Made by a program: the position numbers and the translations under genes
DNA from: Pratylenchus scribneri
Taxonomy: Eukaryota; Nematoda; Chromadorea; Rhabditida; Pratylenchidae
DNA length: 64,000 nt
Assembly (NCBI GenBank): GCA_030063045.1
Contig: JAQSEB010000127.1
Span: forward strand, 434,001-498,000
Reading direction: 5' to 3'
The notes under the pieces: generated by a model
The model's input: only the letters and a program-made list of their open reading frames with translations
The model's database searches: none
What the model was told of the DNA's origin: nothing
Part shown: in pieces, positions 47,937 to 64,000 of the stretch
Layout: the number at the start of each line of letters is the position of its first letter
How positions within the stretch are numbered: position 1 is the first letter of the stretch

Positions 47937-49033
47937 ATGTCAAAATCACAACAAATGGACAATGACAACAAAAATGACAAATTATTATATGAAAAACAAG
48001 CCGATTTCGCCTTTGATTTATTGCGATTAGTTGCTAACATAACAAACAAAAATGATAAAGGGGACGAAAATGAGGATGGCATCATACTTTCCCCATTGTC
48101 CATTTCAATTGCACTGGCAATGGTTTATGTGGGGGCAGAAGGAGAAACTGCTGAGGAATTAGCCAAATTATTAACCGGTTTGTTTGTTTTTTCACATTAT
48201 TCAGGGGTATTTTAAAATTTAAAGTCAAAATTATACCAAACCTAAATAAAAAAAACACTATGAAAATATAAATGTTTATAATTTTTTGGCACTAAAAGTA
48301 TTTTTTGTGGCCATAAAAAGATCAAGTATTCTTTTACTGTACTCGCTCTAACCTAATAAAATGGCCACAAAAATAATGGCACACATTTTATTTACTGAAT
48401 ATTTACTCAATTATAGAAAATCTATAAATATAATTCTATCAAAAATGTATTCATAGATATTTTGATATGCTGACCCTCATTTTCTCTCAGATGCACCAAA
48501 TTCCGTGGAACAAAAAATGAAAGCGCAGCAATTTTTTGGTGGATTATGCCAAGAATTCCTTCATAAAAAGATGCAAGAAGAGGAAAAAGCGAGAAAGGAA
48601 GCAGAAGAAGAAGAAAAAGAAAAACATAAGAAAAAAGATGAAGAAGAAATAAAAAGGAAAGATGATGAGGAAGAACAAAATAAATATGCACCTCCACCAC
48701 CACCACCGCCGGACGAAGAAGGAAAAGAAATAAAAGAAATCATATGCGAATATGGTGATGAAAAATGCAAATGCATTGTGGCATTGGCCAACAAAATTTA
48801 CTTGGCAAAAGGATATCCAATATTGGAAAATTACAAAACGACAATTGGCCAATATTATGCTGGCCTTTTTGAACAATTGGACTTTGGAGGGGAACAATCA
48901 ATAAAGGTAAATTCAATTTTTTGTTTAATTTAATTAATTTTTATTCATAGTCGATTAATGATTTTGTGGAATCGATGACATGTAAAAAAATCAAAAATTT
49001 TTTTGATCCAGGCAGCAGTCATGATGGCACAAA
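47937..49033 (+). pseudogene. serpin, N-terminal part only, with charged and poly-Pro insertion
   Basis: Exons 47937-48177, 48491-48906 and 48951-49033 join in phase. Exon 1 has the serpin N-terminal core (DFAFDLLRLV.., IILSPLSISIALAMVYVGA, ETAEELAKLL). Exon 2 has a roughly 65-residue Glu/Lys-rich segment and seven prolines (PPPPPPP) before serpin sequence resumes (ALANKIYLAKGYPI..). Exon 3 carries INDFVESMT..KIKNFF, the helix-F region. There the family should continue with sheet A and a reactive-centre loop (about 150-200 more residues), but I find no such exons before 52.6 kb. No signal peptide, so an intracellular serpin or a remnant. Either truncated or the missing exons are too short or diverged to see. 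Confidence 0.6.
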
Positions 49034-52000
49034 GTAAGCCCTAAATAATTAAATCTAATTTTACTTTTGCTTTTAAACAATATTTTCATTTTAATATCTT
49101 TTTTGAAAGAATGAGGCAATAATATATTGTACTAAATTATCATCTTTAGTAGTAAACCATGTCCCTTTGGAACTTCCTTACCCCAGATATAAGGACCATT
49201 CGAGTGATATTTGAAAAAAGAAATTTGGCGAAATGTTTATTAAATATTATATAAAATACCGTATAATAAATAATTAAAATTATTAAAAAATAATATTTGA
49301 ATATTATTTCACAAGAATTTAAATCGATTATATCAGTTGATTAAATTTTATTTGATCAATAATTGATTCATTTTCGAATTTTTTCTCATTATTTATTTCT
49401 CCATATAATATAAAACGATTTTGTCAAAAATTTTAATGAAATTATTTCAATATTTTTAAAATTATATATATATTTATTTCAATTTTTAATATTTCAACTA
49501 TGAATTAATTTCTTTATTTACACATTCCATTTTCCATTCAATGAAATAAATTTTGAGAACACCAATGAAAAATTAGGTCAGCTCCCTCAAATAGTCCCAA
49601 AAGAGACGAAAATAGAAATTAGGTCAAGCTGTCCAAAACCATAAAGGACCATCATCTAAAAGAAATGAAATGGAAATTGGACCCTTCCTCCACAGTGCCC
49701 AGCTGACCAACGAAGTGGAAGGGAAAATGAAAATGGAAATTGGACCCTTCCTCCAGTGCCCAGCTGACCAACGAAGTGGAAGGGAAAATGGAAATGGAAA
49801 TTGGACCCTTCCTCCAGTACCCAGCTGACCAACGAAGTGGAAGGGAAAATGGAAATTGGACCCAAAATTATCCAAAAAGACGGATAAAATGACCTTCCCG
49901 CATTTTTATTCTATTCTTTTTTAAAAATTCCTTATTCCAATTCTTCGCTCTTTGACCCTAATTTTTATTTGTCTCTTTTTTCCCTACTCAAATCCATTCC
50001 CATAAATTTAACAAAAAAAAAAGAAACTTTGACGAAAAACAAAAAATTGGAATAAAATTACCCAATTTTTTGAAGAAATTTAAAATTTTTCTTTTTCCAA
50101 TCACCTAAAATGATTTTTTATTATTAACCTTAAAAAAGAAGGGCGCCCTACACTATCCGGAACTTACGGGTTCGGGGTCATACGATATACCATTCGACTC
50201 CTCTCATCGTGCTGAGTTCAATGGCATTAAAATTATGTCCCGGACTTTACGGGTTCTTAAATTAGAGTATGATAAACAAATAAAAACCGCAAAAGTTAAG
50301 GGTCCCCCTATGAGTTGAAAATTTTCAAAAAAAATTTTTCGGACATATTATAACTCAGAGACACATTCTCTTTCCCTCAAAATGAAATTTGTTGTCAGAG
50401 CTGACCATGAAAAGATGAATAGAATAGAATTTCTGGAATCCAATAGAGTGGACTCCATGGTAATTCGACACCAAAGCTAGCCCTATTCTATTCAATTGTT
50501 CCTATCCTATTCAACCTTTGACCATCATTTTTATTTTACTCTAAAAAAATGTTTAATCCACTTAAATCCATTTTCTTTTTTGAATTTTACAGGAAAAGCA
50601 TTTGGAAAAACAAACAAAATTATGAATACAATTAATCAATTTCTTCCAGCTCATTTTATGCTCAATTTCATCAAAATAACCCCAGACCCAGATGCTGATG
50701 GAAAACGACAATGGATATCGTCTTCGAATTTCAGGTAAATATTGGGGTTAATTTCAAACATTTTGAATTTTTTTCCCGAAATTAATATATAAAAAGAGAA
50801 TTTTAATGATTAGTGTGTAAAATAGAAGAGGGAATGAATTATTTAATATGATATTTAGATGTACAGATTTGACTTAATATGTCGGTAAAGAGCCAAATTA
50901 ATCTTTATTCGCGAATGTAACCAAAGAATATTTCGATATTTTCCTCCCAAATAGTGATTAAGATCCTATAACGAATCCTAAAGTCCCATAATTAGGCTAT
51001 CTTTCTAATATAGATAAAATTGCATCTAATTCATGAAATTTATTCGAGAGTTTATGGTCTTTAAATGCAAGGTAAAACTTAATTATTCAGCAATCCTAAT
51101 TTTTAAAGGAAGACATTAATAAAGGGATAGGAATCAAATCTATAATATTGGGATTAAATATTAAAATAATTTGTAAAAAGGGAGAATTTTTATTCAAATT
51201 TGAATTTCAGTGCATTCTTTTCGATATGCCATATCGTATTGAACAGTTGAGGCAAATTAGAATTCAAATACTTCAAAGGTAATAGTCGAGATTTTCGTAT
51301 TTAAATCTGTTTTTTTTTGTCCCAGGTTATCTTGATCTCCATCAGATTTGTGCTTTACGATAGATTGTTGCAATCAATCAAAGAATAACGGATTTTACAT
51401 ATTCAGACAAAAGTCTTGACATATTTACAAAATTTTTGTTATTTTTATTTGTTTAAGAACTAGAATTATAATTTTTAAGAAAAATTATAAAAATCATTCA
51501 ATTTTTGAAAGGAGAATTATTAGCTATGTAAATGTTTTAAGTGAAAGTGTGTGAAGTACTGGAATTATAGTTTTTTTTGTCCATTCCTTGAAAGATTCAA
51601 CATTTTTTGGTTGCCAAATGCTCCAATAATTTTAAATTATTTTAATGAAAGACTACTGAAAATTGTGAAAATACTGTTAAAACTGATCGGAAAGTATTTA
51701 AAAAATAAATTGCAAAGAATCCCGAAGTAGACCGGATCCAAAGATTTGTTTCTATGCGCATTAAACTCTTAAGTAATTTTATGATAAAAAATATAAAGCA
51801 AATGCTTGTGCCCCATACTTAATATTAAGGTAAACGAGTTGAATGACACATTTATTCTAGAATCTAGATCTTACTCACCTCACTAATTTTCTACTTGATT
51901 TAAGAGTTAAGCTCTTGCTTTTAATATATTTGAATATATCGATTATATATTTACTATTACTAGAATGGAAAGAACCATTTATTTAATTCTGAATTTATCA

Positions 52001-52640
52001 GTCAAATTTGAATCGGTAATCTGCTCTACCCAGATTCAAATATTTTTAGATTCTTATTCTACTATTAACCATATTTGATTGTAAAAGATGACAAATCATG
52101 ATGTTAGGTAATATTCTCAGATTGACTAATTTTGACGGTAAATTAAAGTACTTTAGAGGGAAAAATCTGTAAAAAAATAACCGACAAATATTGGAATATG
52201 AACAAGAAATATATTCACTCGTCACCATAAAAAAGGGTGAATTTATTTAAGGATAGAAATATGTTCTTATTTTTATTCCTCTTATTGATTTAAGAATATG
52301 TAACTTATAAAATAATCTCTGAAAATTATGAGATTGCATTTTTTCTCTTCTCTTGAAAAATCCGTGTTCTTAGAGAATTTTTACTTTGCTGTACAAAATT
52401 AATCACATGAAAATGAGAAGGCTAATCAAAAATTGATAACTTTTTGATATATTTCTTATCTCGATTTTTCTTGAATTTCCGAGGATCCCATTTATTTTCT
52501 TCAATATTTTCCTTCTCTTTATAATTATTTTTTATCAAAAGTATTAGAATTATTGAACTCAAAAATTGCTTTTCATTAAATATTGAAATTGTAGAGTATT
52601 ATCTGTGTTGAATTAATAATTGTGTAGTAAATGAGAAAGT
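49034..52640. other. mostly noncoding; two weak exon candidates
   Basis: Besides the repeat at 49655-49862 I see a possible plus-strand exon at 50592-50737 (..TINQFLPAHFMLNFIKITPDPDADGK..) after a TTTTACAG acceptor and another at 51211-51279. Neither fits the phase of the serpin exon 3 donor or looks like serpin. A foldback-like relic with TATACCATTCGACTCCTC is near 50190. The left end of the Maverick-like element may lie in the last part of this stretch. Confidence 0.3.
49655..49862. repeat. tandem repeat, about 63 bp x 3
   Basis: Three to four copies of a unit containing GCCCAGCTGACCAACGAAGT and GGAAATTGGACCCTTCCTCC. The minus-strand ORFs with repeated FPFHFVGQLG-like words are by-products. 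Confidence 0.88.
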
Positions 52641-52667
52641 AGTGAATATTCTAGGAAATTTCCAGCC

Positions 52668-52675
52668 TATATAAG
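52668..52675 (+). promoter_or_regulatory. TATA box of the 52713 gene
   Basis: TATATAAG lies 38 bp upstream of the ATG, nearly the same spacing as the TATA box of the membrane-protein gene (61538-61545). No GC box accompanies it. Confidence 0.55.
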
Positions 52676-52712
52676 GAGAATCGAAAAAAAATTTTATATT
52701 CAAAAAAACAAA

Positions 52713-53057
52713 ATGAACGGATTATATTATTTCATGGACTTTCATAATTGCTCTACAAGACAAGATTTGAATAGAATTATAAGTTTCGACGGCTCGAATA
52801 TACGAATTCCACCTTATCGATGTGCACATCCAAATGGAAAACTTTTCAAGCATATAAAGGAAATTATTATCTTGGATATTGTTCCTTCGAACTCGGAACA
52901 TTTGATTTGTTTATGCATTGCAAATAAAATTGACAATTCATATTATTATGAAAATATTTATGATGATGGAACGATCTATGATGAATTTTTTTATTTACAT
53001 CTTGAAGACATAGCAATTTGTCCAATTAATGAAAATACATGTGTACATAATTCATAA
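52713..53057 (+). CDS. element-encoded protein of unknown function, 114 aa
   Basis: Intronless ATG ORF with a TATA box 38 bp upstream and an AATAAA shortly after the stop. The product is acidic and Tyr/Ile/Asn-rich with six cysteines (RCAHPNG, LICLCIAN, ICPINENTC) and no predicted signal peptide or TM. It is convergent with the next gene, 36 bp apart. Not recognised. It is the leftmost intact gene with virus-like compact organisation, so I place it in the Maverick-like element, but it could sit just outside. Confidence 0.6.
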   Translation: MNGLYYFMDFHNCSTRQDLNRIISFDGSNIRIPPYRCAHPNGKLFKHIKEIIILDIVPSNSEHLICLCIANKIDNSYYYENIYDDGTIYDEFFYLHLEDIAICPINENTCVHNS

Positions 53058-53093
53058 AATATTCTGTAATAAACTTCTTTTCTCAGAGTTTTT

Positions 53094-53696
53094 TCATTGA
53101 ATATTCAGACATTGATCGACAATAGATGATAATTCGTTTAATTCCGATGAGGTTTCTTGTTCATTATGTTGACCGTATTCCAGACATTTTATTAGTCCAT
53201 TTTCTTTCATTTCAATACGGAAGAATCCATAAAGGTGGGTAAATAGTAGGTAATGATAATCCCCGTGAAAATTCACGTGAATTGAAAAGAGCTCGGGTAA
53301 TTCTGAATTGTCAGAGATTTCAATAATTGTTTTTTCTTGATTTAAACTGTTTGAAATTTCAATATAATTTTTATTTATGTTGAAATAAACAGTAAGAGCT
53401 GCGTTGTTAATTCTGAGTTGTTTATTATCAAATTTAATAATGTAATTGCCGTTCAATAAATCACTTTTGATAATCATTTGTGTTGGGAAAATCTTGAAGC
53501 CTAATAAATAAGGTAGAGAGTTCATCATTTTTAACGCATTCGATTGGAGAGCCGAATTACTCTTTAGCCGAGATGAGTATTGCAAAAAATGTAAGTAGTG
53601 AAGGGGCAAATATAAAATTTAGAAGTCTGTCAAGTCGTCGGATGATTGAGTTTTAAATCTTTTTAAGAGAGATTCACCAGGAATGGGATTTTCCAA
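53094..53696 (-). pseudogene. element gene of unknown function, probably damaged
   Basis: A coding-like minus frame runs from 53696 to the TAA at 53094 but begins with TTG and is broken by an in-frame TAA at 53619-53621. The part after the break has an ATG at 53528 and could still give 144 aa (begins MMNSLPYLLGFKIFPTQ). The stretch before the break (..NPIPGESLLKRFKTQ..) is also protein-like and follows a TATA/GC-box promoter at the usual distance, which is why I read the whole as one formerly longer gene. The product is rich in Leu/Ile/Asn with a Glu-rich C-terminus; no family recognised. An intact 144-aa gene with a long 5' leader is the alternative. Confidence 0.5.
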
Positions 53697-53737
53697 ATTT
53701 TGATAAATTTCAAGATATTTGGATGTAAGTATTCTAG

Positions 53738-53829
53738 TTTATATAAACTAGACCACGCCCATTTAGGGCGGAGCTTATTATTCATCCTAGTAAAAATTTG
53801 AATGTGGGCGGAGCTTATTACTATTTAAA
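53738..53829. promoter_or_regulatory. divergent promoter of the polymerase and 53.1-kb genes
   Basis: Leftward: palindromic TATA TTTATATAAA (53738-53747) next to CCACGCCC (53753-53760). Rightward: two exact copies of GGGCGGAGCTTATTA (53766-53780, 53806-53820), the second directly followed by TATTTAAA (53822-53829), 50 bp before the polymerase ATG. The GC-box-then-TATA layout recurs at 58946-59046. Confidence 0.7.
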
Positions 53830-53878
53830 AGATGAAAAATTTAACCAAATATTCATTTTTCCAAAAAATTAAATAAAA

Positions 53879-56800
53879 ATGGAAGGACCTCCTCCAACTA
53901 AAAAGCCTAAGCTTTTGACTGAAAATGATGAAACAGTAAATGAAGCAAATTCCATTAATAATTATGTAAAACTCATTGATTCCGATGTCGACATGAACCA
54001 AAAATTCAAATGTCTTCAATCTAAAACGAAATTCCTTATTGAAAATCTACTCGATGATCCCGAAGTATTATTAGCACAAATATTTCAAAAATGTATTGAT
54101 GAAGCATTGGAGGAATGCAAGAAGAAAAATATCGAAGGTGATCGACTTGGTGCTATGATTTCCTCACCTTTACTTGAACCAGATATATGGATTCCCGTCC
54201 GGGAAATAACCGATAACACATTGGATACAATTTTGAACCGGTTTCTGCTTGTGTCGCAATCCAAAGAGGAAGGCTCACTCTTTGGTGAACCATTTACGGT
54301 TAGTATCACAGTATTGGATAAAAATTCATTGGAAGAGCATTTAACGATTCGAGGGAAAGGAAAAGCGAAAAAATTAGCGGTAAAGCATTGCATCAACGTC
54401 AAGACACTAATTAAAGTGGAGAATCATGATTCATATTGCTTATTTTATGCCTTGCAATTAACTAAAAAATATATCTTACAAAATATGGACTTACGTTGGA
54501 AATTTTTCCGTTATCACCACGGATTACAGGAATATAGAGGAAAACTGGAAAAGGATGTCTATGACCTTATGCAAAAATGTTCGATCCCTCGTGGACAAAA
54601 AACTTATGACGCAGTGAAATACGGACCAATTGTAATTGATCATTGGAATAAAACAGTTAAGGATCGACGATTTAAATTCTTCATATTCAACGACCTTGGC
54701 GATTATAAGCCTATTTTCAAATATGGTTTATCTGATTATAACACGCCGATAATTCTTTATCATAATGGCGATCATTTTGATGGAGTAAGGAATATTGCAT
54801 CATTATTTGGTAGAAAAAACTATTGCCTATCTTGTGAAACTCCATTCGACAACAAAAGAAATCATAGTAAAAAATGCAAAACCAGATGTTTAAATTGTAC
54901 AAGGCAAGGACCATCATTCCCATGTCCGCCTATTCCCGATTATATAAAATTTTGCGAGGATTGTAAGAAAACGTTCATCAACCCGGATTGTTTTAATCAT
55001 CATATTTCAAATAATGGTTCGGTCTGTCGACAATCAAAACAATGTGATGTTTGCGGAAAAATTTATGATGTTAATGACAATTCGAAAAATGGTAGAAATG
55101 GACATTCTTGTCTCGAAAGATGGTGTTATACTTGCCGAAGTTTTCATGAACCAGAGCGAGGCTGCTACATTCAAAAATTATTTCCTAAAACTAACGCCGA
55201 TTATCGGATATTAGTTTATGATGTTGAAACAATGCAACATCAAAGTATTGACACAGAAAAATATCCGGATAGATATCGACACAATGTCAATTTCATTGCT
55301 CTAAAGGTAATATGTACAAAGTGTATAGCTAATTTAAAATACAATGAAAGTCTAAAGAAGAATAATTGTGAAATTTGTGGCGATGCTCGAACCATAACCT
55401 TCTCTCATAGAGGATTCACTGAAACAACAGTTGATCGCCAAATTATTACAGAATATCCACTCAAAGTATTCGTTAATTGGATACTTTATAAATTCCCCAT
55501 TGCCTACAAATCAATTTGTTTCGCCCATTATGGAGGCCGTTTTGATCACATTTTGACCTTCAAAGAAATATTCAAACTTGGCCATAGTCCGGCTATGATC
55601 AAAAAAGGAAATAAAATTTATCAAATGAATGTTCCAAGGACCGAGAAAAATCCCGAAATCATTTTCAAAGACTCATACAATTTGACGCCAATTTCTTTGG
55701 ACTCACTTGTGTCGGCATTTGGCCTTGATATCGAGGAAAAGTTATTTTTTCCTCATTTAGCAAATAACCCCTCTAATTATGATAAAATACTACCTTCACT
55801 ACCGCCATTGAGCGATTATATGGCAGCAGGAATGATGCCAGCCAAGAGAGCAAAATTTAATAAATATTATGAAGAGAATAAAGATCAACCATTTAATTTA
55901 AACGAAAAATTAGCAGAGTATTGTGTGAATGACGTTGAAATATTATGCAGTGCGTTAGTGGCTTTCAGAGAAGAATTTTTTGAATTGAGCCGTAGAAAAA
56001 AATCAAAGGAATACAAAATGATTGCGAATTGCTCCACGAACAGTCTTTGGGGAAAGTGGAAAAAGCCAACAGGAGATGGAATTGATATTTTATATGATGG
56101 AATTACAATCGCAAGTGGATGTATGCGTCATTTCCGGATGAATCATTTGCCCGAAAATCATTTGGGAATTACACCCGAACGAGGATATGATAGTGCCGAA
56201 ACCCAAAGTCTTTTGGCTCTAAAATTTTTGAAATGGTATGCAGAAAAGCATAATGTTACAATTCAAACATGCCTCTCGGATGGAGGAGAATATAAATGTG
56301 GCCAATTTAAATTAGACGGATATATTAAAGAACAAGAATTGGCTTTGGAGATTAACGGATGCGTGTGGCACGCGTGTCCAATTCATTATCCTGACGATGA
56401 TTTTATGATGCCCTCGGGAAAAACTGCAGGAAAAATCAGACAAATAGATAAATTGAGAATGAATTTTATAAAAAGTCAAATACCTAATGTCAAGGTATAT
56501 TGGGAATGCCAGATTGCTGATATGCTCACAAAGGATCGTGAAATGAAGGAATGTTTTGATTCGTATCTCGATGAAGGGCCTCTTAATATTAGAAATTGCT
56601 ACTTTGGCGGCCGGACAGGTCCTTTTAAAATTTATCACAAAACAAGAGAAGGAGAAAAAATATCATATTACGACTTTACCTCTCTTTATCCCTACACAAA
56701 TTTTGTGACAGAATATCCGGTTGGACTTCCGGAATTACATATTTTAAATAAGAATGTCCTATGGCAATCTCCGGAAGACAATCCTTATAAAATTGCTCTT

Positions 56801-57994
56801 CTCAAAGTGTTTGTTATACCATCCAGAAAAATTGATGTTCCCGTGTTGCCGATGAAGTTTGATGACCGCCTATTATTCCCTCTCTGTCGAGCTTGTTCTC
56901 TAAAATACCCGAATGGTGGAGTCATAAAGGATTATAGTTGCAATCATACAGATCAAGAGAGAGGCTGGGTCTCGTCATGCACATCTATTGAACTAAATTA
57001 CGCATTAAAAGAGAATTACAAAGTCGTCAAAGTGTATCGTGTCCTGGAATTTACTTCGACGGATTCGAAATTATTTCGAGGATATGTGGCGGAATTTTTA
57101 GCAATGAAAATTCATGCAAGCGGTTTTCCGGAACAAATTAAGACGAGAGAAGATGAGGATAAATTCATCCAAGAATGTGATGAAAAATTTAATATCAAAA
57201 TAGAAAGAGAAAAGATGATACCTAATAAAGGTAAGCGATTTATTGCAAAGTTATGTGCCAACAATCTTTGGGGCCGTTTCTCTTTGAGAAATCAATTAGT
57301 GAAAACACTGGTCACTAATTCTCCGGCAATATTGCGAAAATATTTGGAAGACCGTAAAATTGAAGTCAATTCAATAAATATGTTAACAGATGAGACTATA
57401 TTGATAAGTTATCAAGTCAAAGATGAATTTGTGGAGGAACACAATTGCTCCAATATAATAATTTCCTTATGGACGACAAGTCAAGCCAGATTGATTCTTT
57501 TGGATGCTATGAAGAAAGTCGCCAGATCGGAAGGGTCCCAACTTCTCTATTGTGATACCGACTCAATCATATTTTCGCATCCGGAAGATAACAATCCTTT
57601 GTCAATCGGACCACATTTGGGAGATTTAACCGATGAATATCCAGGAAAAAGCATCATTGAATATGTTTCTGGCGGAGCCAAACAATACGGATTAATGTTG
57701 AGGGATAATACAACAAATGAGATAAGTTACAGTCTAAAAGTTAGAGGGATCACTCTAAACAGTGAAATAATAAGCAACACGTTGTGTTATGAAACTTTCA
57801 AAAAAAGTGTCTTGAAGTATGCAGAGAGTGGCGAAGTCGAACATATTCCAGTGTGTTATCCTAGGTTTATCAGACCGGCGGTAAATAAAGGTGAAATCAT
57901 TTCAAGGCCAATGGTGAAAATTTACAAGCCATATGTTGGAAAAGGAATTATCACTAAAGATTATTTTGTAAGAGACTTTGGTTTTATTGTATAA
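53879..57994 (+). CDS. pPolB: protein-primed family B DNA polymerase (Maverick/Polinton type)
   Basis: Intronless, 1371 aa, ATG in good context. N-terminal region with a NHDSYCLFYAL motif, then a Cys/His-rich block (about residues 315-425, many C-x2-C pairs). 3'-5' exonuclease: Exo I YDVE (D448, E450), Exo II GRFD (D556), Exo III YCVNDVE (D685). A nuclease-like insert around residues 770-880 contains LDGY, LEINGC and WHACP. Palm: motif A YDFTSLYP (D932), motif B KLCANNLWG (K1124), motif C YCDTDS (D1226, D1228). All catalytic aspartates are present, so activity is expected. It replicates the element's linear DNA using a terminal protein primer. The promoter has two GC boxes and a TATA box. AATAAA follows the stop. 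Confidence 0.95.
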   Translation: MEGPPPTKKPKLLTENDETVNEANSINNYVKLIDSDVDMNQKFKCLQSKTKFLIENLLDDPEVLLAQIFQKCIDEALEECKKKNIEGDRLGAMISSPLLEPDIWIPVREITDNTLDTILNRFLLVSQSKEEGSLFGEPFTVSITVLDKNSLEEHLTIRGKGKAKKLAVKHCINVKTLIKVENHDSYCLFYALQLTKKYILQNMDLRWKFFRYHHGLQEYRGKLEKDVYDLMQKCSIPRGQKTYDAVKYGPIVIDHWNKTVKDRRFKFFIFNDLGDYKPIFKYGLSDYNTPIILYHNGDHFDGVRNIASLFGRKNYCLSCETPFDNKRNHSKKCKTRCLNCTRQGPSFPCPPIPDYIKFCEDCKKTFINPDCFNHHISNNGSVCRQSKQCDVCGKIYDVNDNSKNGRNGHSCLERWCYTCRSFHEPERGCYIQKLFPKTNADYRILVYDVETMQHQSIDTEKYPDRYRHNVNFIALKVICTKCIANLKYNESLKKNNCEICGDARTITFSHRGFTETTVDRQIITEYPLKVFVNWILYKFPIAYKSICFAHYGGRFDHILTFKEIFKLGHSPAMIKKGNKIYQMNVPRTEKNPEIIFKDSYNLTPISLDSLVSAFGLDIEEKLFFPHLANNPSNYDKILPSLPPLSDYMAAGMMPAKRAKFNKYYEENKDQPFNLNEKLAEYCVNDVEILCSALVAFREEFFELSRRKKSKEYKMIANCSTNSLWGKWKKPTGDGIDILYDGITIASGCMRHFRMNHLPENHLGITPERGYDSAETQSLLALKFLKWYAEKHNVTIQTCLSDGGEYKCGQFKLDGYIKEQELALEINGCVWHACPIHYPDDDFMMPSGKTAGKIRQIDKLRMNFIKSQIPNVKVYWECQIADMLTKDREMKECFDSYLDEGPLNIRNCYFGGRTGPFKIYHKTREGEKISYYDFTSLYPYTNFVTEYPVGLPELHILNKNVLWQSPEDNPYKIALLKVFVIPSRKIDVPVLPMKFDDRLLFPLCRACSLKYPNGGVIKDYSCNHTDQERGWVSSCTSIELNYALKENYKVVKVYRVLEFTSTDSKLFRGYVAEFLAMKIHASGFPEQIKTREDEDKFIQECDEKFNIKIEREKMIPNKGKRFIAKLCANNLWGRFSLRNQLVKTLVTNSPAILRKYLEDRKIEVNSINMLTDETILISYQVKDEFVEEHNCSNIIISLWTTSQARLILLDAMKKVARSEGSQLLYCDTDSIIFSHPEDNNPLSIGPHLGDLTDEYPGKSIIEYVSGGAKQYGLMLRDNTTNEISYSLKVRGITLNSEIISNTLCYETFKKSVLKYAESGEVEHIPVCYPRFIRPAVNKGEIISRPMVKIYKPYVGKGIITKDYFVRDFGFIV

Positions 57995-58239
57995 TTTTTA
58001 TTCATTTATTGTAATTGTAATAAATATTTTTATTGTAAATACAATTTTTGATTAAAAACTAGTCTTGAGAAGATGACATAATTAAAAAATTAATGTTAAG
58101 AAGTAGTCATTTTAAGGAGAAATTTTACAATATTAAGAATAAGAAGATGACAAATCTAAAAAATTAAGAAGAAGAAGATGATATTTGTAAAAATTGAAGC
58201 TTATTTTTATTAAAATTTAAGAAAAAATATGTATAAGTC
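57995..58239. terminator. convergent 3' region with poly(A) signals
   Basis: AT-rich gap between convergent genes. AATAAA at about 58018 serves the polymerase; the reverse signals for the PAZ gene are less clear. Confidence 0.4.
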
Positions 58240-58312
58240 CACCTTTGGCCTGGGCCCCGGCCGCCGCCCCGCCGCCGCCGCCGCCGCCGCCGCCACCGCC
58301 ACGGGCGATTTA
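58240..58312. repeat. GCC-trinucleotide tract abutting the PAZ gene
   Basis: An almost pure GC block (CCGGCCGCCGCCCCGCC.. about 10 CCG units) in an element that is otherwise AT-rich. It starts a few bases after the PAZ stop codon; on the minus strand the same frame after the stop would read Ile-Ala-Arg then about 12 glycines, so it resembles a former or read-through Gly-rich tail. Confidence 0.75.
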
Positions 58313-58843
58313 CCATCTTTGAGTGAATAAGTTGCGTCCCCAATCATGTGATGAACATTCTTTGAAGTCTTCTTCTTGAGATTCATCCATGATCAGTTTT
58401 GGGGAATTGGATTTTGTTGAATTTTCCTTATTCTTCGAGGGTAGAAAAATTTTCATTGTATCCAAAATTTCGTCGTTGTTCAATTCAAGTAATTCAAGTG
58501 GGTAATAATGGTCCTCTCCATTAACGAATTTTTTCACAGCGCAGTGATTATATGGGAATAAGAGTCGAATTCGATGTTTGGCGTAAAAATATTTTGTCAC
58601 CGAACAATTGAATACTTTGGATAATTTGCCAAAAGCTGGCATTTCATCTGCTCCTTTTTTGGTAAGTCCGCTAAAGGAAAATGTATGTTTCTCGCCATTT
58701 CGATCTTTGTATGTTGTTGTCAAATTACAGCCAAAGAATTTTAAACTTACCTTCTTCCGTTCCTCTGGATGATTAAGTCGATCGCGAAGATCTTTTACAC
58801 GGCATTTTAAAAAGTCGGCAATTGCTTGGGCGAAGAGAACCAT
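58310..58843 (-). CDS. stand-alone PAZ-domain protein (Argonaute-derived)
   Basis: Intronless ATG ORF, 177 aa. Residues about 3-124 read as a PAZ domain of nematode Argonaute type: FAQAIADFLKCRVKDLRDRL, then a YKDRNGEKHTFSFSGLTKKG strand region, SVTKYF (81-86), RIRLLFPYNHC and YYPLELLEL (113-121), matching the PAZ order (.. GLT .. V.eYF .. ypl.lp.c .. ylPlEl). The PAZ fold binds 3' ends of small RNAs. The remaining 50 residues are polar and acidic; N, MID and PIWI domains are absent, so it cannot slice. It has its own TATA/GC-box promoter facing the 59117 gene. I infer a host-derived decoy that binds or competes for small RNAs; alternatively it binds nucleic acid for the element itself. Confidence 0.78.
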   Translation of the reverse strand: MVLFAQAIADFLKCRVKDLRDRLNHPEERKKVSLKFFGCNLTTTYKDRNGEKHTFSFSGLTKKGADEMPAFGKLSKVFNCSVTKYFYAKHRIRLLFPYNHCAVKKFVNGEDHYYPLELLELNNDEILDTMKIFLPSKNKENSTKSNSPKLIMDESQEEDFKECSSHDWGRNLFTQRW

Positions 58844-58945
58844 TTTTGTCTCTTTGGATAGGAAATATTTGGATGGAGAATATTTGATTGGAATATTGGA
58901 AGGGATAGAATGAGATAGAGAGAGAGAGAGAGAAAAAATATAATC

Positions 58946-59046
58946 TTTTATAAAGACACGCCCACTTTGACCAAAAATTCGGATAAATTTGGTATAGCTC
59001 CGCCTTTTTTACCAATTTTAAGCCACGCCCCCGTTAACTATATAAA
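58946..59046. promoter_or_regulatory. divergent promoter of the PAZ and SPK-rich genes
   Basis: Leftward: TTTTATAAAG (58946-58955) directly beside CACGCCC (58957-58963). Rightward: CCACGCCCCC (59023-59032) then TATATAAA (59039-59046), 71 bp before the ATG. Between them GCTCCGCC (58997-59004) matches the core of the polymerase promoter repeat in inverse orientation. A GA-repeat tract (about 58917-58933) lies in the PAZ leader. Confidence 0.7.
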
Positions 59047-59116
59047 GTCGGGGTTTTCCTCATATTTTACTCATTTTATTCCAAAAATTTTTAAAAATAA
59101 ATTTTCTCTTATTAAA

Positions 59117-59497
59117 ATGTCCCCAAGTCCAAAATCTCCCAAAGCCCCAAAATCCCCGAAATCTCCCTATGACCGAAAGAAATCTTCCTCTCCTAAAATT
59201 CAGAAAGTGACCAAGGATGAAGAGAAGAAAATCGAGGTCAAAGAGGATCCAAAAAAGCCAGAAAACAATGAGATACCAGAAGAGAAGAAGATCGACTTCT
59301 CCCAACCGCTTTGGAAGCTCTACAAAAATAAAAGTGTGTTGATCTTCAAACTATGTTCCGATTGTGGCAATGCCCTCTTCCAGAGCAAGAAGAAATTTCA
59401 CCGATCCGAAGGACGTCTACATTTGGCGATCGGATTTTGCGATGACTGCTTGGGGATCAACATTGGTATGACTGATTTAATTTCACCAAAACATTAA
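59117..59497 (+). CDS. SPK-rich basic protein with C-terminal zinc-ribbon-like motif
   Basis: ATG at 59117 is chosen over an upstream TTG because it follows the TATA box by 71 bp; 126 aa. The N-terminus is a run of Ser-Pro-Lys motifs (MSPSPKSPKAPKSPKSPYDR), like the minor-groove-binding S/T-P-K-K motifs of histone tails and some virion core proteins. A Lys/Glu linker follows. The C-terminus has two Cys pairs 30 or more residues apart (CSDCG and CDDCLG), consistent with a zinc ribbon. Possible role: DNA condensation or a regulatory DNA-binding protein of the element. Expressed divergently from the PAZ gene. Confidence 0.65.
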   Translation: MSPSPKSPKAPKSPKSPYDRKKSSSPKIQKVTKDEEKKIEVKEDPKKPENNEIPEEKKIDFSQPLWKLYKNKSVLIFKLCSDCGNALFQSKKKFHRSEGRLHLAIGFCDDCLGINIGMTDLISPKH

Positions 59498-59632
59498 AAT
59501 AATTTTTATATAAAATATTTTATTTTATAATAATATATTCAAATAAAAATTATTAAATAAAAATATTCTAAAATTAAAAAATAATTTAAAATTATTTAAA
59601 TTTTTATAAAGGAATCAGGAGTTGAAGTTAAT

Positions 59633-59696
59633 CCTACAAAGATCGTAGGACCCGTATTTGGGGTTTGCGGGTATTGATAACATAAGATCGTTATCA
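59633..59696. other. two small hairpins with AAGATC loops
   Basis: CCTAC-AAAGATC-GTAGG (59633-59649) and TGATAAC-ATAAGATC-GTTATCA (59675-59696), 25 bp apart. Stems differ in sequence but both loops contain AAGATC, which suggests a selected motif. Lies just left of the 59846-60635 array. Confidence 0.6.
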
Positions 59697-59845
59697 TAAC
59701 GTCCCCCAGATTCTTGATCTCCTTTATAAAAATTGAATAACCTAAAATTAGTAATTTAGGAAAAAAATAAATCTTAGTAGGAAAAAATAAAAATAAGATT
59801 AAAATGAAAATATATTCTAGGATTTGGGTTATAGTAAGAAGAATA

Positions 59846-60635
59846 AATAGTGAGTAAGGGTAGATCGCCATGGCTATTGCCTAAATGATCCGGAATTTGT
59901 AAGATCGGTCATGTGGAGAGGTCTTCCTCAAAGTGTGCTTGGTTTTGCATTTTCTTGTATTTAATTTCATACATTTCATAGAATGTTTTTTGTTAACATA
60001 GTGAGGGTAGATCGCCATGGCTTGGCCAAAATGATCCGGAATTGGTAGGCCAGAAGGAATCGGCGGGTGGGCTAGAGGGAGCCGAGAAATTCTGGTTACC
60101 TTTTCTGTATTTAAGAATCGGACTTAATTTCATATATGTTAAACTTAGTAAGAGTGGTTGATCACCCAAAACGATCCGGAAGGTGAGCTATGGCCGTCAC
60201 AGGATGGAGCTATGGCCCTTCTGCACTTAGATTATTAGGATGAGATGATTAATAGTGAGTAAGGGTAGATCGCCTTGGCTAATGCTTAAATGATCCGGAA
60301 TTTGTAAAATCGATCATGTGGAGAGGTCTTCCTCAAAATGTGATTGGTTTTGCATTTTCTTGTATTTATTTTCATACATTTCATAGAATGTTTTTGTTAA
60401 TCATAGTGAGGGTAGATCGCCATGGCATTGCCAAAATGATCCGGAATTGGTAGGCTGGAAGGAATCGGCGGGTGGGCTAGAGGGAGCCGAGGAATTCCGG
60501 TTATCTTTTCTGTATTTAAGAATCGGTCTTAATTTCATATATGTTAAATTATAGTAAGAGAGGTTGATCACCCAAAACGATCCGGAAGGTGAGCTATGGC
60601 CGTCACAGGATGGAGCTATGGCCCTTCTGTATTGT
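59846..60635. repeat. 405-bp tandem duplication, six GATCCGGAA modules
   Basis: Two copies of a roughly 400-bp block (59846-60250 and 60251-60635). Each block has three related modules: GGGTAGATCGCCATGGC (or GGTTGATCACCC in the third) followed 10-15 bp later by AAATGATCCGGAA or AAACGATCCGGAA. Modules also share TTTCTGTATTTAAGAATCGG or TTCTTGTATTTAATTTCATA. No coding frame. It fills the gap between the SPK-rich gene and the protease 3' end. Confidence 0.85.
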
Positions 60636-60691
60636 AAGAATCGTGAGAAATTTTTTAATAATAGAGAAATATGTTTTCATTTTAATCAATT

Positions 60692-61135
60692 TTATTTAAT
60701 CATTTCTTTTACAATAGTTTTAACGAATAAATCTGTATTTATATTTGAATCTAGCATTTTTATAAATCGATCGAATGTATAGCCTAGGGATAAAAAATAG
60801 ATAAAAGTGATACAATAATGGCCACAAACGTCCGAATATAGAGACTGGTAGGGGTAACGGTTCATAATAATTTTTGGATATTTTTTAAGAAAATTTTTTA
60901 TATTTCCTAAGGGTTCCATTCCATAGCTATCAAAATAATTAACTTCTTTCTTCGGCCCAGTCATAAACACTCCTATCCAATGAGAGCCTTCACGATTAGA
61001 TTTATCAAGGTTGAATATGAGCGAAGCCGGATAACTGAGTTCATGAGGAGGTTGATCGCTTGGGAAGCATCCCTGATAATATTTTTTGGTCACTGAGTTC
61101 GATTTCAATATTTTGTCGATTTGATCCGTGTTCAT
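60692..61135 (-). CDS. adenain-like (C5 family) cysteine protease
   Basis: ATG at 61135 (MNTDQIDKILKSN) is preferred over an upstream TTG because the family begins with this helix; 147 aa. Catalytic residues in family order: H52 in GSHWIGVF, D69 in YFDSYG, Q97 in PYQSL, C104 in DVCGHYC. This is the maturation protease of adenoviruses and Maverick/Polinton elements, cleaving capsid and core precursors. It overlaps the 3' end of the membrane-protein ORF by 95 bp in another frame. All catalytic positions are intact. Confidence 0.9.
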   Translation of the reverse strand: MNTDQIDKILKSNSVTKKYYQGCFPSDQPPHELSYPASLIFNLDKSNREGSHWIGVFMTGPKKEVNYFDSYGMEPLGNIKNFLKKYPKIIMNRYPYQSLYSDVCGHYCITFIYFLSLGYTFDRFIKMLDSNINTDLFVKTIVKEMIK

Positions 61136-61502
61136 ATCTTCTTCGTTGATTTTCCCTCCAATTGTATACCCACCGAATTTGCCAGGCAATTATAGAACAA
61201 ATAATCAAAAAATACAAGGCCAATAAAAGATAGCAATAAATATTGCTATATAACGATTTTTCATGGGGAGATTCTTTGCACAAAGGGATCGAAGGATATT
61301 GCACTACAGGATCAATCATATCCTTTGTCGTATTTTCATTTGATATAGTTGTATTCGTTAAATAGGACGGATTTTTCAATAAGAATTCCGAATAAGAAGG
61401 CAATGGAGAAGTTAGGATAACTGGGAATGTCATCCCTTGTTTTGTTAATCTTATATACTCTGTATAATTTGGTAATCTCTGAAAATATAATCGAATAGAC
61501 AT
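61041..61502 (-). CDS. small single-pass membrane protein
   Basis: ATG ORF of 153 aa with a TATA box 36 bp upstream. No N-terminal signal, but one strong TM helix at residues 88-109 (IYCYLLLALYFLIICSIIAW) with basic residues after it, suggesting an N-out, C-in orientation; potential N-glycosylation sites (NTT and NTT near residues 50 and 57) lie in the predicted outer part. The last 32 codons overlap the protease start. Not recognised by sequence. Much smaller than the envelope fusogens reported in some nematode Mavericks, so I do not call it one; a membrane or viroporin-like role is possible. Confidence 0.6.
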   Translation of the reverse strand: MSIRLYFQRLPNYTEYIRLTKQGMTFPVILTSPLPSYSEFLLKNPSYLTNTTISNENTTKDMIDPVVQYPSIPLCKESPHEKSLYSNIYCYLLLALYFLIICSIIAWQIRWVYNWRENQRRRYEHGSNRQNIEIELSDQKILSGMLPKRSTSS

Positions 61503-61537
61503 GAATTTATCTGTATCAAAATGAAATGAAACAAGTG

Positions 61538-61545
61538 TTTATATA
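61538..61545 (-). promoter_or_regulatory. TATA box of the membrane-protein gene
   Basis: On the minus strand CCCTATATAAACAC sits 36-43 bp before the ATG, in the 50-bp gap after the capsid gene. Spacing equals that of the 52713 gene. Confidence 0.55.
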
Positions 61546-61552
61546 GGGACAA

Positions 61553-62860
61553 TCAAACGGTAATATCTGTGGTAATTGTACGGTTCCTATCAAGCATCAA
61601 CAAAGAATCAACTTCTCCCATTGCAATTAACACAATTCCATGAGCAGGCACAGCTGTATTGAATGCCATTTTAATAAGGCAAGATCCTGGCTTGATTAAA
61701 TCGAAAGTTTCACCATTGTCTTCCTTTGAATTGGTAAGATTGAATACAAAGAAACACCATCCATCCCCATAAGATTTGTAATCAATTCCGTTACTTTCTA
61801 GTGTTCCAGCATAACCAATTGCTTCCATCGTATCATGAAATGCTCTCATATACTTTTTATTCGGAAAATCTAATGAATATGGAGCTACTGGATGATTTGT
61901 CCCGTTGGCAACAATAGTAATCTCTCGTAAACCGAATGGTTTAAAATTGAAGGGACTAGTTTTTTGATCCCCAACATAATCCTTATTACTCAGCATAGCA
62001 ATTACTACGCGACGAGGTACTTGATCATTCCAAAGACATGTGTTATATTCCGTATGACCTTCTCCTATGAACATTGATTTTATAGATGTTTTTCTCATTG
62101 GATATCTAGCCGGGTGTAATTCCAATTTTTTATTGATGTCAAATGCGAGGGAGTCCACCAATTCAAGTGTTTTAACATATAGTTTTAATCCAGTGATCTC
62201 AAAATGATATGTATCATCAGTGCTGGTGATTATTACAAAATTACTGTCATTAGGAAGAAGCTCAATATCAACTTCGCATTGATTTACTAGATATTTTGGC
62301 TGATTTGCTAAATCAATATCCAATTTTGACATGAACTGAGCTGTTTTGCTTTCAGCAAAGAGTCTTTTTCGAGCAGCGAATCCCGCTCCAGCTATTTGTG
62401 AATCATCATCTTTATAATAACCAGCGGCATTAAGATATGAAATTTTTGAAGTTGTTGGATAGGTCAGTTCATAGTCAAAAATACTTTTGTAGGCCATCAG
62501 AGAATTTCCTTCGAATACTTGTGTACCATTTATTGAAACTCTACAATTTTTCCAAATTGTATGTCCGATCATTTGACAAACAGAAACATTTTCATTGGCA
62601 GGGAGGTTCTCAAGATTTCCTTCTTCATTTCTTTTTCTTATCCGGCATTCCATAAGGATATAACACTTTGATAGATCAATATAATTCGTGCTTGCATGAA
62701 TTTTAAAATGATAAGGAATATCCGAAAGGGGGTTTAGGGTCAAATATTCCCGAAATGCCGACGAACTAACAGTCACATTTGTGCTGGGGATATCAAACAA
62801 AGATAGAGCATTTGTGATGGCATTCGGCGAATCCTTATCAATTTTGTGAAAGGTAGTCAT
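61553..62860 (-). CDS. major capsid protein, double-jelly-roll type
   Basis: ATG at 62860, one base after the stop of the upstream gene; 435 aa. It resembles the F54H12.2-like proteins found in invertebrate Maverick-type elements: an early YIDLSKCYILMECRI strand pair, HTIWKNCRVSINGTQVFEG, then a YKSIFDYELTYP segment, features of the first jelly roll. The second half (after about residue 230, with PARYPMRKTSIKSMFIGEG) would form the second. An internal TATATAAA at 62922-62929 (reverse strand), 62 bp upstream in the PX gene, may drive it alone. It would form the capsid shell. Size fits the shorter capsid proteins of this group; no stop or frameshift seen. Confidence 0.8.
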   Translation of the reverse strand: MTTFHKIDKDSPNAITNALSLFDIPSTNVTVSSSAFREYLTLNPLSDIPYHFKIHASTNYIDLSKCYILMECRIRKRNEEGNLENLPANENVSVCQMIGHTIWKNCRVSINGTQVFEGNSLMAYKSIFDYELTYPTTSKISYLNAAGYYKDDDSQIAGAGFAARKRLFAESKTAQFMSKLDIDLANQPKYLVNQCEVDIELLPNDSNFVIITSTDDTYHFEITGLKLYVKTLELVDSLAFDINKKLELHPARYPMRKTSIKSMFIGEGHTEYNTCLWNDQVPRRVVIAMLSNKDYVGDQKTSPFNFKPFGLREITIVANGTNHPVAPYSLDFPNKKYMRAFHDTMEAIGYAGTLESNGIDYKSYGDGWCFFVFNLTNSKEDNGETFDLIKPGSCLIKMAFNTAVPAHGIVLIAMGEVDSLLMLDRNRTITTDITV

Positions 62861-62861
62861 T

Positions 62862-63377
62862 TTAATAGAGTCCAAAAGTGTCGACTCTCTTTCTCTTAGG
62901 CGGTTTTGGATTTTTTAAGGGTTTATATACTTTTCTTCCGACTAATGTATGTTGAATGGGGATATGTTCTAGTTTTCTTCGTCTTTTTATAGCACCGGAT
63001 CCCATCTGTTTTCGTCCTTTTTCTAAAATTGTGTCAATTCCTTTCTTCCCTTCTTCAATTATCGCTTCTTTCACATTTCCTCCTTCAGCAATTTTATCGA
63101 GTATTCTCTCTCCCGTATACAGAGCTTCTTTTCCTACAGATGTTCCAGCTCTTCTAATTACAGGTAAAATATAACGCCAGATTCCTCTTAAAACGTCTCC
63201 AATGCCGGCTCCGCTCTGTCTATAACCATAACCTCTTTGATATGGGTTCATTCCTCGATAATATGTGTAAGGTTCATTCATTAATTCATTCTCCTCTGGA
63301 TTTACGATTCTACCTCCACCAATTTGGAATACATGGTCGTCATATGAGACACTTCTAGTATCGAATGGTATATGCAT
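62862..63377 (-). CDS. PX/pVI-like minor virion protein
   Basis: ATG at 63377 (MHIPFDTRSVSYDDHVFQIG), not the upstream TTG; 171 aa. It has the Gly-rich amphipathic block typical of Maverick PX and adenovirus-like pVI/pX proteins (GAGIGDVLRGIWRYILPVIR then AGTSVGKEAL), a charged helix, and a very basic C-terminus (IKRRRKLEHIP, PKPPKRKRVD) that could bind DNA or act as a nuclear signal. Glycine-rich sites such as GAG may be protease targets. The stop TAA is followed by one base and the capsid ATG, so the two are translated from adjacent or internal starts. Confidence 0.68.
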   Translation of the reverse strand: MHIPFDTRSVSYDDHVFQIGGGRIVNPEENELMNEPYTYYRGMNPYQRGYGYRQSGAGIGDVLRGIWRYILPVIRRAGTSVGKEALYTGERILDKIAEGGNVKEAIIEEGKKGIDTILEKGRKQMGSGAIKRRRKLEHIPIQHTLVGRKVYKPLKNPKPPKRKRVDTFGLY

Positions 63378-63416
63378 ATTTATCAAATTTAAATTTTACA
63401 ATAAATGAATGTAAAT

Positions 63417-64000
63417 TTACAAATTTATCACTTTCTTAAATACTAAAGTCACGAGTACAGTCCCATAATCAAAGGGTATATATCTTCCATTCATCCATTT
63501 TAATTCTATCTCTATTTCATTAATTTGACGAGGTAAAACTGGAATAAACATTGGCTGATCATAAATACGTTCTATGTAACCCCCAGTTTGATTATCAACT
63601 GCCACAATTCTAAGCAATGAGCTTAGCGAATTTCCTAGAATCACACTCCTTGTAAGTCCATTCGCATAAACAGCAAAACTTGTGAATCCACCTCGTATAT
63701 CCACTGTATATTTTCCAATTTCTCCATTCTCTATAAAATCTCTCGTTTCATCTTCAAATCCGCAAGTATAGGCTATTTGTTCAGAGAGAGCTATATGACT
63801 AATCTCCGGATCATTAAACTTGATTCGATATCGATCAATATTCCTAATATATTCAAATTCTACTTCAGGTGTGCCTTCTATAGGAATAAGTTTCTGTCGT
63901 ACTTTATCAAGCAATCCTCTTTGTTCTGTCGCTTCTCCCGCGATATTTTCTTTAACTTGTTGTAATAATCCATCTCCATCTTGTGGAGTGATTTGTTCCT
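63417..64000 (-). CDS. probable minor capsid (penton) protein, 5' end outside window
   Basis: The minus frame is open from 64000 through the TTG at 63914 to the stop at 63417, so the visible 194 codons are the C-terminal part of a longer gene. The end of the protein is beta-rich (FTSFAVYANGLTRSVI.., EIEIELKWMNGRYIPFDYGT), consistent with the single-jelly-roll penton that in Mavericks sits next to PX and the capsid gene. The call rests on position and composition more than on specific motifs. Its stop is 39 bp before the PX start. Confidence 0.55.
   Translation of the reverse strand, partial: EQITPQDGDGLLQQVKENIAGEATEQRGLLDKVRQKLIPIEGTPEVEFEYIRNIDRYRIKFNDPEISHIALSEQIAYTCGFEDETRDFIENGEIGKYTVDIRGGFTSFAVYANGLTRSVILGNSLSSLLRIVAVDNQTGGYIERIYDQPMFIPVLPRQINEIEIELKWMNGRYIPFDYGTVLVTLVFKKVINL

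Follow-up and report, generated by a model that had tools for sequence, protein, structure and literature searches.

A stand-alone PAZ gene resides in a Maverick element of the nematode Pratylenchus scribneri, within a 64,000-nucleotide stretch of contig JAQSEB010000127.1 (assembly GCA_030063045.1, positions 434,001 to 498,000 of the forward strand; this whole stretch is referred to as the window). A first-pass annotation, made from the letters of the window, had described such a gene and had interpreted it as a captured host domain that acts against small-RNA silencing. The observation is confirmed here, and the interpretation as a whole is partly supported, with its anatomy and history left standing. 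On balance we think it probable, by a modest degree, that this PAZ domain was derived long ago from a worm Argonaute and that several Maverick lineages have retained it for its weakening effect on the small-RNA silencing which the host directs at the element.

The PAZ gene of the window

The gene, its two parts and its likely promoter are located in the window as follows.

58310..58843, minus strand: stand-alone PAZ gene, 177 amino acids (aa), from its open reading frame (ORF), Pfam and structure comparison
58478..58843, minus strand: PAZ domain, residues 1-122, confidently modelled in the predicted structure
58313..58477, minus strand: acidic disordered tail, residues 123-177, with a Trp at the end (low predicted local distance difference test score)
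58946..58952, minus strand: TATAAAA box in the sequence, a likely promoter, 109 nucleotides 5' of the PAZ start codon

Structure comparison gave the window protein a PAZ fold, with 18% identity in the best structural match; a different fold would have overturned the first-pass annotation. The ORF stops after the PAZ domain and the tail, and the same gene encodes neither MID nor PIWI, which bears out the claim of a PAZ domain without its Argonaute partner domains. The first-pass annotation would have been overturned by an exon of a full-length host Argonaute. No PIWI match was found within the window and the nearest one is 412,641 bp distant, so that a host Argonaute exon is ruled out. A GC-rich (GCC)n run is found at 58255-58305 of the window, directly 3' of the PAZ stop codon, in AT-rich surroundings.

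PAZ genes in Mavericks across the genome

The genome searched comprised 227 Mb in 276 contigs, and because the searches score a limited number of candidates, the copy numbers are lower bounds. At least 150 relatives of the window protein were found, and 80 of the 86 closest matches have no internal stop. Among the 30 best relatives (the window's own copy counted), 27 have another element gene within 1.5 kb and the remaining three an ATPase match within 2.6 kb. Conversely, PAZ was located within 10 kb of 32 of the 34 scored matches (740 candidates) to the protein-primed-type DNA polymerase B (pPolB); one of the two misses stops roughly 350 bp short of the end of its contig, C176, and the other is 22.8 kb from PAZ.

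We used pPolB, protease, integrase and ATPase as Maverick markers and clustered them at 12 kb. This gave 149 clusters with at least two marker kinds, 108 of which have a PAZ match within 10 kb; 200 random placements gave 6.46 on average and 13 at most. The first-pass annotation had made its reading depend on finding the gene in other Maverick copies, and it is present there; together with the at least 150 relatives, the 108 clusters rule out a one-off capture. A marker lies within 10 kb of 83 of the 86 closest relatives, three having none in that range, and 37 of the 49 weakest relatives have no marker within 15 kb. Of the 150 relatives, two have a PIWI match within 10 kb, and Maverick markers also lie beside one of these. 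A further 64 PF02170 matches fall outside the relative set: at 5 kb, 27 are near PIWI, 17 near a Maverick protease or pPolB, 20 near neither and none near both, and host Argonautes and Maverick PAZ genes therefore separate cleanly.

Additional PAZ families were read from PF02170 matches far from the window protein, whose own family is called family A. L-numbers denote loci read from the same genome.

L053:1866-2669: PAZ ORF, with PAZ in a 268-codon frame that has a His-rich end
L051: bare PAZ, 126 aa
L052: PAZ protein, 139 aa

All three belong to Mavericks that share only about 30-40% identity with the window element in their pPolB, protease or capsid-like ORFs, and the presence of the gene extends in this way to very divergent elements. 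The Maverick context is repeated at L054 for the L052 family and at L058 for the L051 family, and L055 and L057 adjoin a relative of a 114-aa ORF of the window element; at L056, where PAZ is weaker, no element gene was detected within 4 kb. All 15 members of a mixed alignment match PAZ in Pfam at an expectation value (E) of 0.01, and the profile of this alignment recovers human AGO2 at 1.5e-15. Family C proteins are bare 126-aa PAZ domains without a tail.

Several of these loci hold other genes. A TATA-binding-protein homologue lies beside the PAZ ORF in a Maverick at L053:2800-3594 (plus strand; PF00352, E 1.2e-15, two stretches). A TFIIB homologue is present in another Maverick family at L052:1127-1864 (minus strand; PF00382, E 2.7e-11), with a 95% identical copy at L054:2056-2793 (plus strand), and its frame overlaps the end of the PAZ ORF. 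At L059:2-4372 (plus strand), an open frame of 1457 codons includes a stretch that weakly resembles PAZ.

Selection and origin

The ratio of nonsynonymous to synonymous substitution rates (dN/dS) was 0.04-0.39 in nineteen pairs from intact copies, which are partly non-independent; one pair was saturated at synonymous sites. These values rule out a dead or chance ORF, and purifying selection on PAZ in several lineages argues for a real function of the gene for the element. PAZ and pPolB similarity correlate over 10 loci (Spearman 0.76, reached in 2 of 5000 permutations).

The tree was built from 81 columns with 25 stand-alone PAZ sequences (18 from this genome and seven public ones known as protein sequences only), eight host exons and human AGO2, and includes part of the host Argonautes only. 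Rooted with AGO2, all 25 stand-alone sequences form one group (support 88), and worm-type Argonaute exons are its neighbours (support 96 for the two together). Branches within the group are poorly supported, for instance 55 for family A, and the alignment is short. As the stand-alone sequences group together and join the worm-type exons, the tree fits one old capture from a worm Argonaute. With regard to the host capture proposed by the first-pass annotation, the grouping beside worm-type Argonaute exons supports it, but the gene appears far too old and too widespread to stem from one recent capture in this element.

The element around the gene

The other genes of the element in the window are listed below.

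52713..53057, plus strand: 114-aa ORF, relatives of which adjoin PAZ in L003-L007 and also in L055 and L057
53094..53609, minus strand: 171-aa ORF, relatives of which adjoin PAZ in L003-L007
53879..57994, plus strand: pPolB, 1371 aa, convergent with the PAZ gene (PF03175, E 6.3e-39)
59117..59497, plus strand: 126-aa gene, divergent from PAZ, that encodes Cys-x-x-Cys pairs; relatives adjoin PAZ in other copies such as L002, L003, L011, L013, L023 and L029
60692..61189, minus strand: adenovirus-type/Ulp1-type cysteine protease (C48/C5 matches below cut-off)
61041..61502, minus strand: 153-aa ORF overlapping the protease ORF; relatives adjoin PAZ in L021, L026, L029 and L030
61553..62875, minus strand: 440-aa candidate major capsid protein, from its place and size; 31% identical ORF in L051
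62862..63386, minus strand: 174-aa ORF (ORF call; no Pfam match)
63417..63914, minus strand: 165-aa ORF, candidate minor capsid protein (ORF call; no Pfam match)

The polymerase scored 134.6 bits with PF03175 (cut-off 25.8). The protease was recognized through a 40% identical relative at L051 that scores 25.9 with PF00770 (cut-off 21.3), and it has 155 matches across the genome. No Pfam match above a cut-off was obtained for the 440-aa candidate capsid protein. Past the end of the window, on the same contig (C127), an integrase match is located at C127:500183-500728 (2.2 kb past the end) and an FtsK/A32-like ATPase match at C127:501726-502373 (3.7 kb past the end). The integrase match is 50% identical to an L074 ORF that reaches 26.6 bits with rve (cut-off 32.6), the L073 counterpart being above the cut-off with 50.7 bits. 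The ATPase match is 69% identical to an L074 ORF marginally above the Pox_A32 cut-off (23.8 vs 22.8). The rve family search itself gave none near the window, its 150 scored matches being mostly in long open frames of other elements. No convincing terminal inverted repeats were seen in window 48000-64000, and the element extends past the window end. Judged by its genes, the element is a Maverick, because pPolB, the protease, candidate capsid genes and the integrase and ATPase matches share one contig; the residence in a Maverick-type element that had been proposed holds.

Across 1371 aa, the pPolB of the window and that at C176:441174-445286 share a rounded identity of 100%, suggestive of either recent movement or a duplicated haplotype. 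In L003-L007 the block of 114-aa ORF, 171-aa ORF and pPolB seems inverted relative to the PAZ gene when compared with the window. Outside the element, at window 47496-48933, are gene-fragment ORFs that we take to be serpin-like from their translation pattern.

Proposed function and alternatives

Many nematodes have no piRNAs, and 22G RNAs together with worm Argonautes are thought to restrain transposons. The sequence data suggest that Mavericks may use the PAZ gene to blunt this silencing defence. The PAZ protein would be made from its own promoter, and its pocket would take hold of small RNAs directed at the element, either 22G-type or Dicer products, by their 3' ends. Argonautes would then be loaded less or lose their guides, with free PAZ either holding the small-RNA 3' ends or displacing the PAZ domain of Argonaute. 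Because it has no MID and PIWI, such a protein could not itself silence.

The RNA pocket is mostly kept in family A, with two of its classical places changed. Nine contact positions, which we take to be those of the AGO1 PAZ-RNA structure shifted by two, had a mean entropy of 0.90 compared to 1.60 over all 93 aligned positions, and 217 of 20,000 random position sets were as conserved. The R315 place is Arg or Lys in 115/121 sequences, H316 is kept in 119/121 and the R277 place is basic in 115/121, while an aromatic residue stands three columns past the F294 place in 123/123. The Arg/Lys and His pocket positions are also kept in families other than A, and His is found at H271 in ten sequences of these families (by eye).

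Several observations speak against the proposal. The window protein alone scores 22.4 bits with PF02170, below the cut-off of 28.8; many genome relatives exceed this cut-off, the divergent relative L055 with 37 bits. In family A, 119/121 have Tyr for H271, and aliphatic residues or Thr predominate at the F294 place, in a part where the alignment is uncertain. The Trp tail was seen in family A only and not in ten sequences of other families. None of the 224 matches listed from the BFVD library of viral structures reached an E of 0.001 or better; scans of viral contigs with the protein and, separately, with the alignment yielded nothing useful. Finally, the element can manage without the gene. 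No PAZ match lies within 10 kb of 41 of the 149 Maverick clusters, and three 9.8-kb Maverick stretches (L072-L074) contain Maverick-type ORFs but no PAZ ORF (best E 0.07); these stretches were chosen because they have a protease without PAZ nearby, they cover only parts of elements, and the profiles would miss a PAZ that has diverged too far. PAZ as a gene common to all Mavericks is ruled out by these clusters and stretches, which make it a common accessory and no essential part of the elements.

The same absence bears on the strongest alternative, in which PAZ would serve replication or expression of the element, unrelated to silencing, by binding its transcripts or single-stranded DNA at their 3' ends while the element is packaged or replicates from a protein primer. 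PAZ adjoins pPolB or protease in many copies, the similarities of PAZ and pPolB are correlated as described above, and PAZ domains recognize single-stranded 3' ends generally. However, replication does not need PAZ, since 41 of the 149 clusters have none detectable, and the position of PAZ relative to pPolB differs among copies; we regard this role as unlikely.

The changed H271 and F294 places of family A, and its acidic tail with a terminal Trp, which is a feature of Argonaute hooks, would agree with a PAZ fold that has become a protein-binding scaffold without RNA binding, for example for Argonaute cofactors or Dicer partners. Such a role is distinctly unlikely, given that the pocket Arg/Lys and His are well conserved and kept in other families and that family C is a bare 126-aa PAZ without any tail. 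Less probable again is that PAZ lets the element exploit host small RNAs rather than block them, for example by packing them into particles or directing them against rival elements. The pocket is mostly kept, and because several PAZ-bearing Maverick families share this genome, rivalry among elements is plausible; however, no Pfam MID or PIWI match was obtained in ten element ORFs of the window and no PIWI in the window, beyond which the element continues. A chance ORF, a dead copy or a host Argonaute exon, in whose favour the low Pfam score of the window protein might be cited, has a negligible probability.

Returning to suppression of silencing, family A may have a second contact with the host. 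Of 104 public proteins (fragments counted), 64 have a Trp among their last four residues, whereas 500 shufflings of the tails gave 9.9 on average and 20 at most, a contrast inflated by relatedness. It is speculative that the acidic Trp tail docks on Argonaute in addition. An extended scenario, tentative and on the doubtful side, is that of a new structural class of silencing suppressor: an Argonaute PAZ would have entered Mavericks in a single capture that predates the split of several of their lineages in plant-parasitic nematodes, and would have been retained as an anti-silencing gene. In family A it would be two-handed, its PAZ holding the small-RNA 3' end and its tail with the terminal Trp engaging the Trp pocket of Argonaute.

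Public relatives and significance

Two further protein searches found 104 and 43 proteins. Organism names, present in 36 of the 104 rows of the first search (by eye), were all Meloidogyne, Globodera or Heterodera, and the named rows of the second were Meloidogyne or Globodera, relatives that point to a plant-parasitic nematode of this group as the source of the window. Other public rows came from ena, jgi and lgn, and the public relatives are known as protein sequences only. We found no paper on a Maverick or Polinton PAZ protein among those listed in a literature search that lay mostly outside subscription journals; a study of polinton incursions in nematodes may mention one. This agrees with the first-pass annotation, which knew of no such protein, yet single relatives are already labelled 'PAZ domain-containing protein' in UniRef.

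One study reports that piRNAs were undetected in nematodes outside clade V. For Globodera pallida it describes abundant 5'-triphosphate RNAs that map to transposons, with 22G RNAs more antisense than sense (PMC4323106). Another study reports that a clade IV nematode has small RNAs which resemble piRNAs and are directed against transposons (PMC9203780), and this counts against a plain absence of piRNAs. In excerpts of an account of root-knot nematodes, many worm-type Argonautes are described, no PRG-1 orthologue was identified and PAZ-only proteins are not discussed (PMC5934874).

If the silencing-suppressor reading is true, a widespread transposon gene for PAZ alone would be direct evidence of an arms race over small-RNA 3' ends, research would gain a natural PAZ decoy, and the means by which Mavericks spread in the face of silencing would become testable. 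RNA-interference-based control of plant-parasitic nematodes relies on a pathway that the PAZ protein may touch.

Comparison with known systems

Compared to the PAZ domains of Argonautes (human AGO1/AGO2, Drosophila Ago1/Ago2; PF02170), the window protein has no N, MID or PIWI part, is only 18% identical in the best structural match, is encoded by a transposon, has an added acidic tail and, as in family A generally, carries Tyr in place of H271. The nearest host sequences in the tree are the worm-type Argonaute PAZ exons L037, L038, L040 and L046 of the same genome (joint support 96), which we take to be WAGO exons. They belong to larger genes, with PIWI within 5 kb in three of the four and none on the contig of L046 among the matches listed, and unlike the solo PAZ proteins they have no Arg-His pair in the tree alignment.

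With nematode Mavericks/Polintons, such as Polinton-1 of Caenorhabditis briggsae, the element has in common pPolB, an adenain-like protease, an rve integrase, an A32-like ATPase and candidate capsid genes. It differs in having the PAZ gene, and some of its relatives in the genome also have TBP-like (TATA-binding protein) or TFIIB-like genes. We know of no viral suppressor of RNA silencing that is built from a PAZ domain. Like the suppressors p19, B2, 2b and the Argonaute-binding WG/GW proteins, the PAZ protein is proposed to serve a parasite by acting on small RNAs or on Argonaute.
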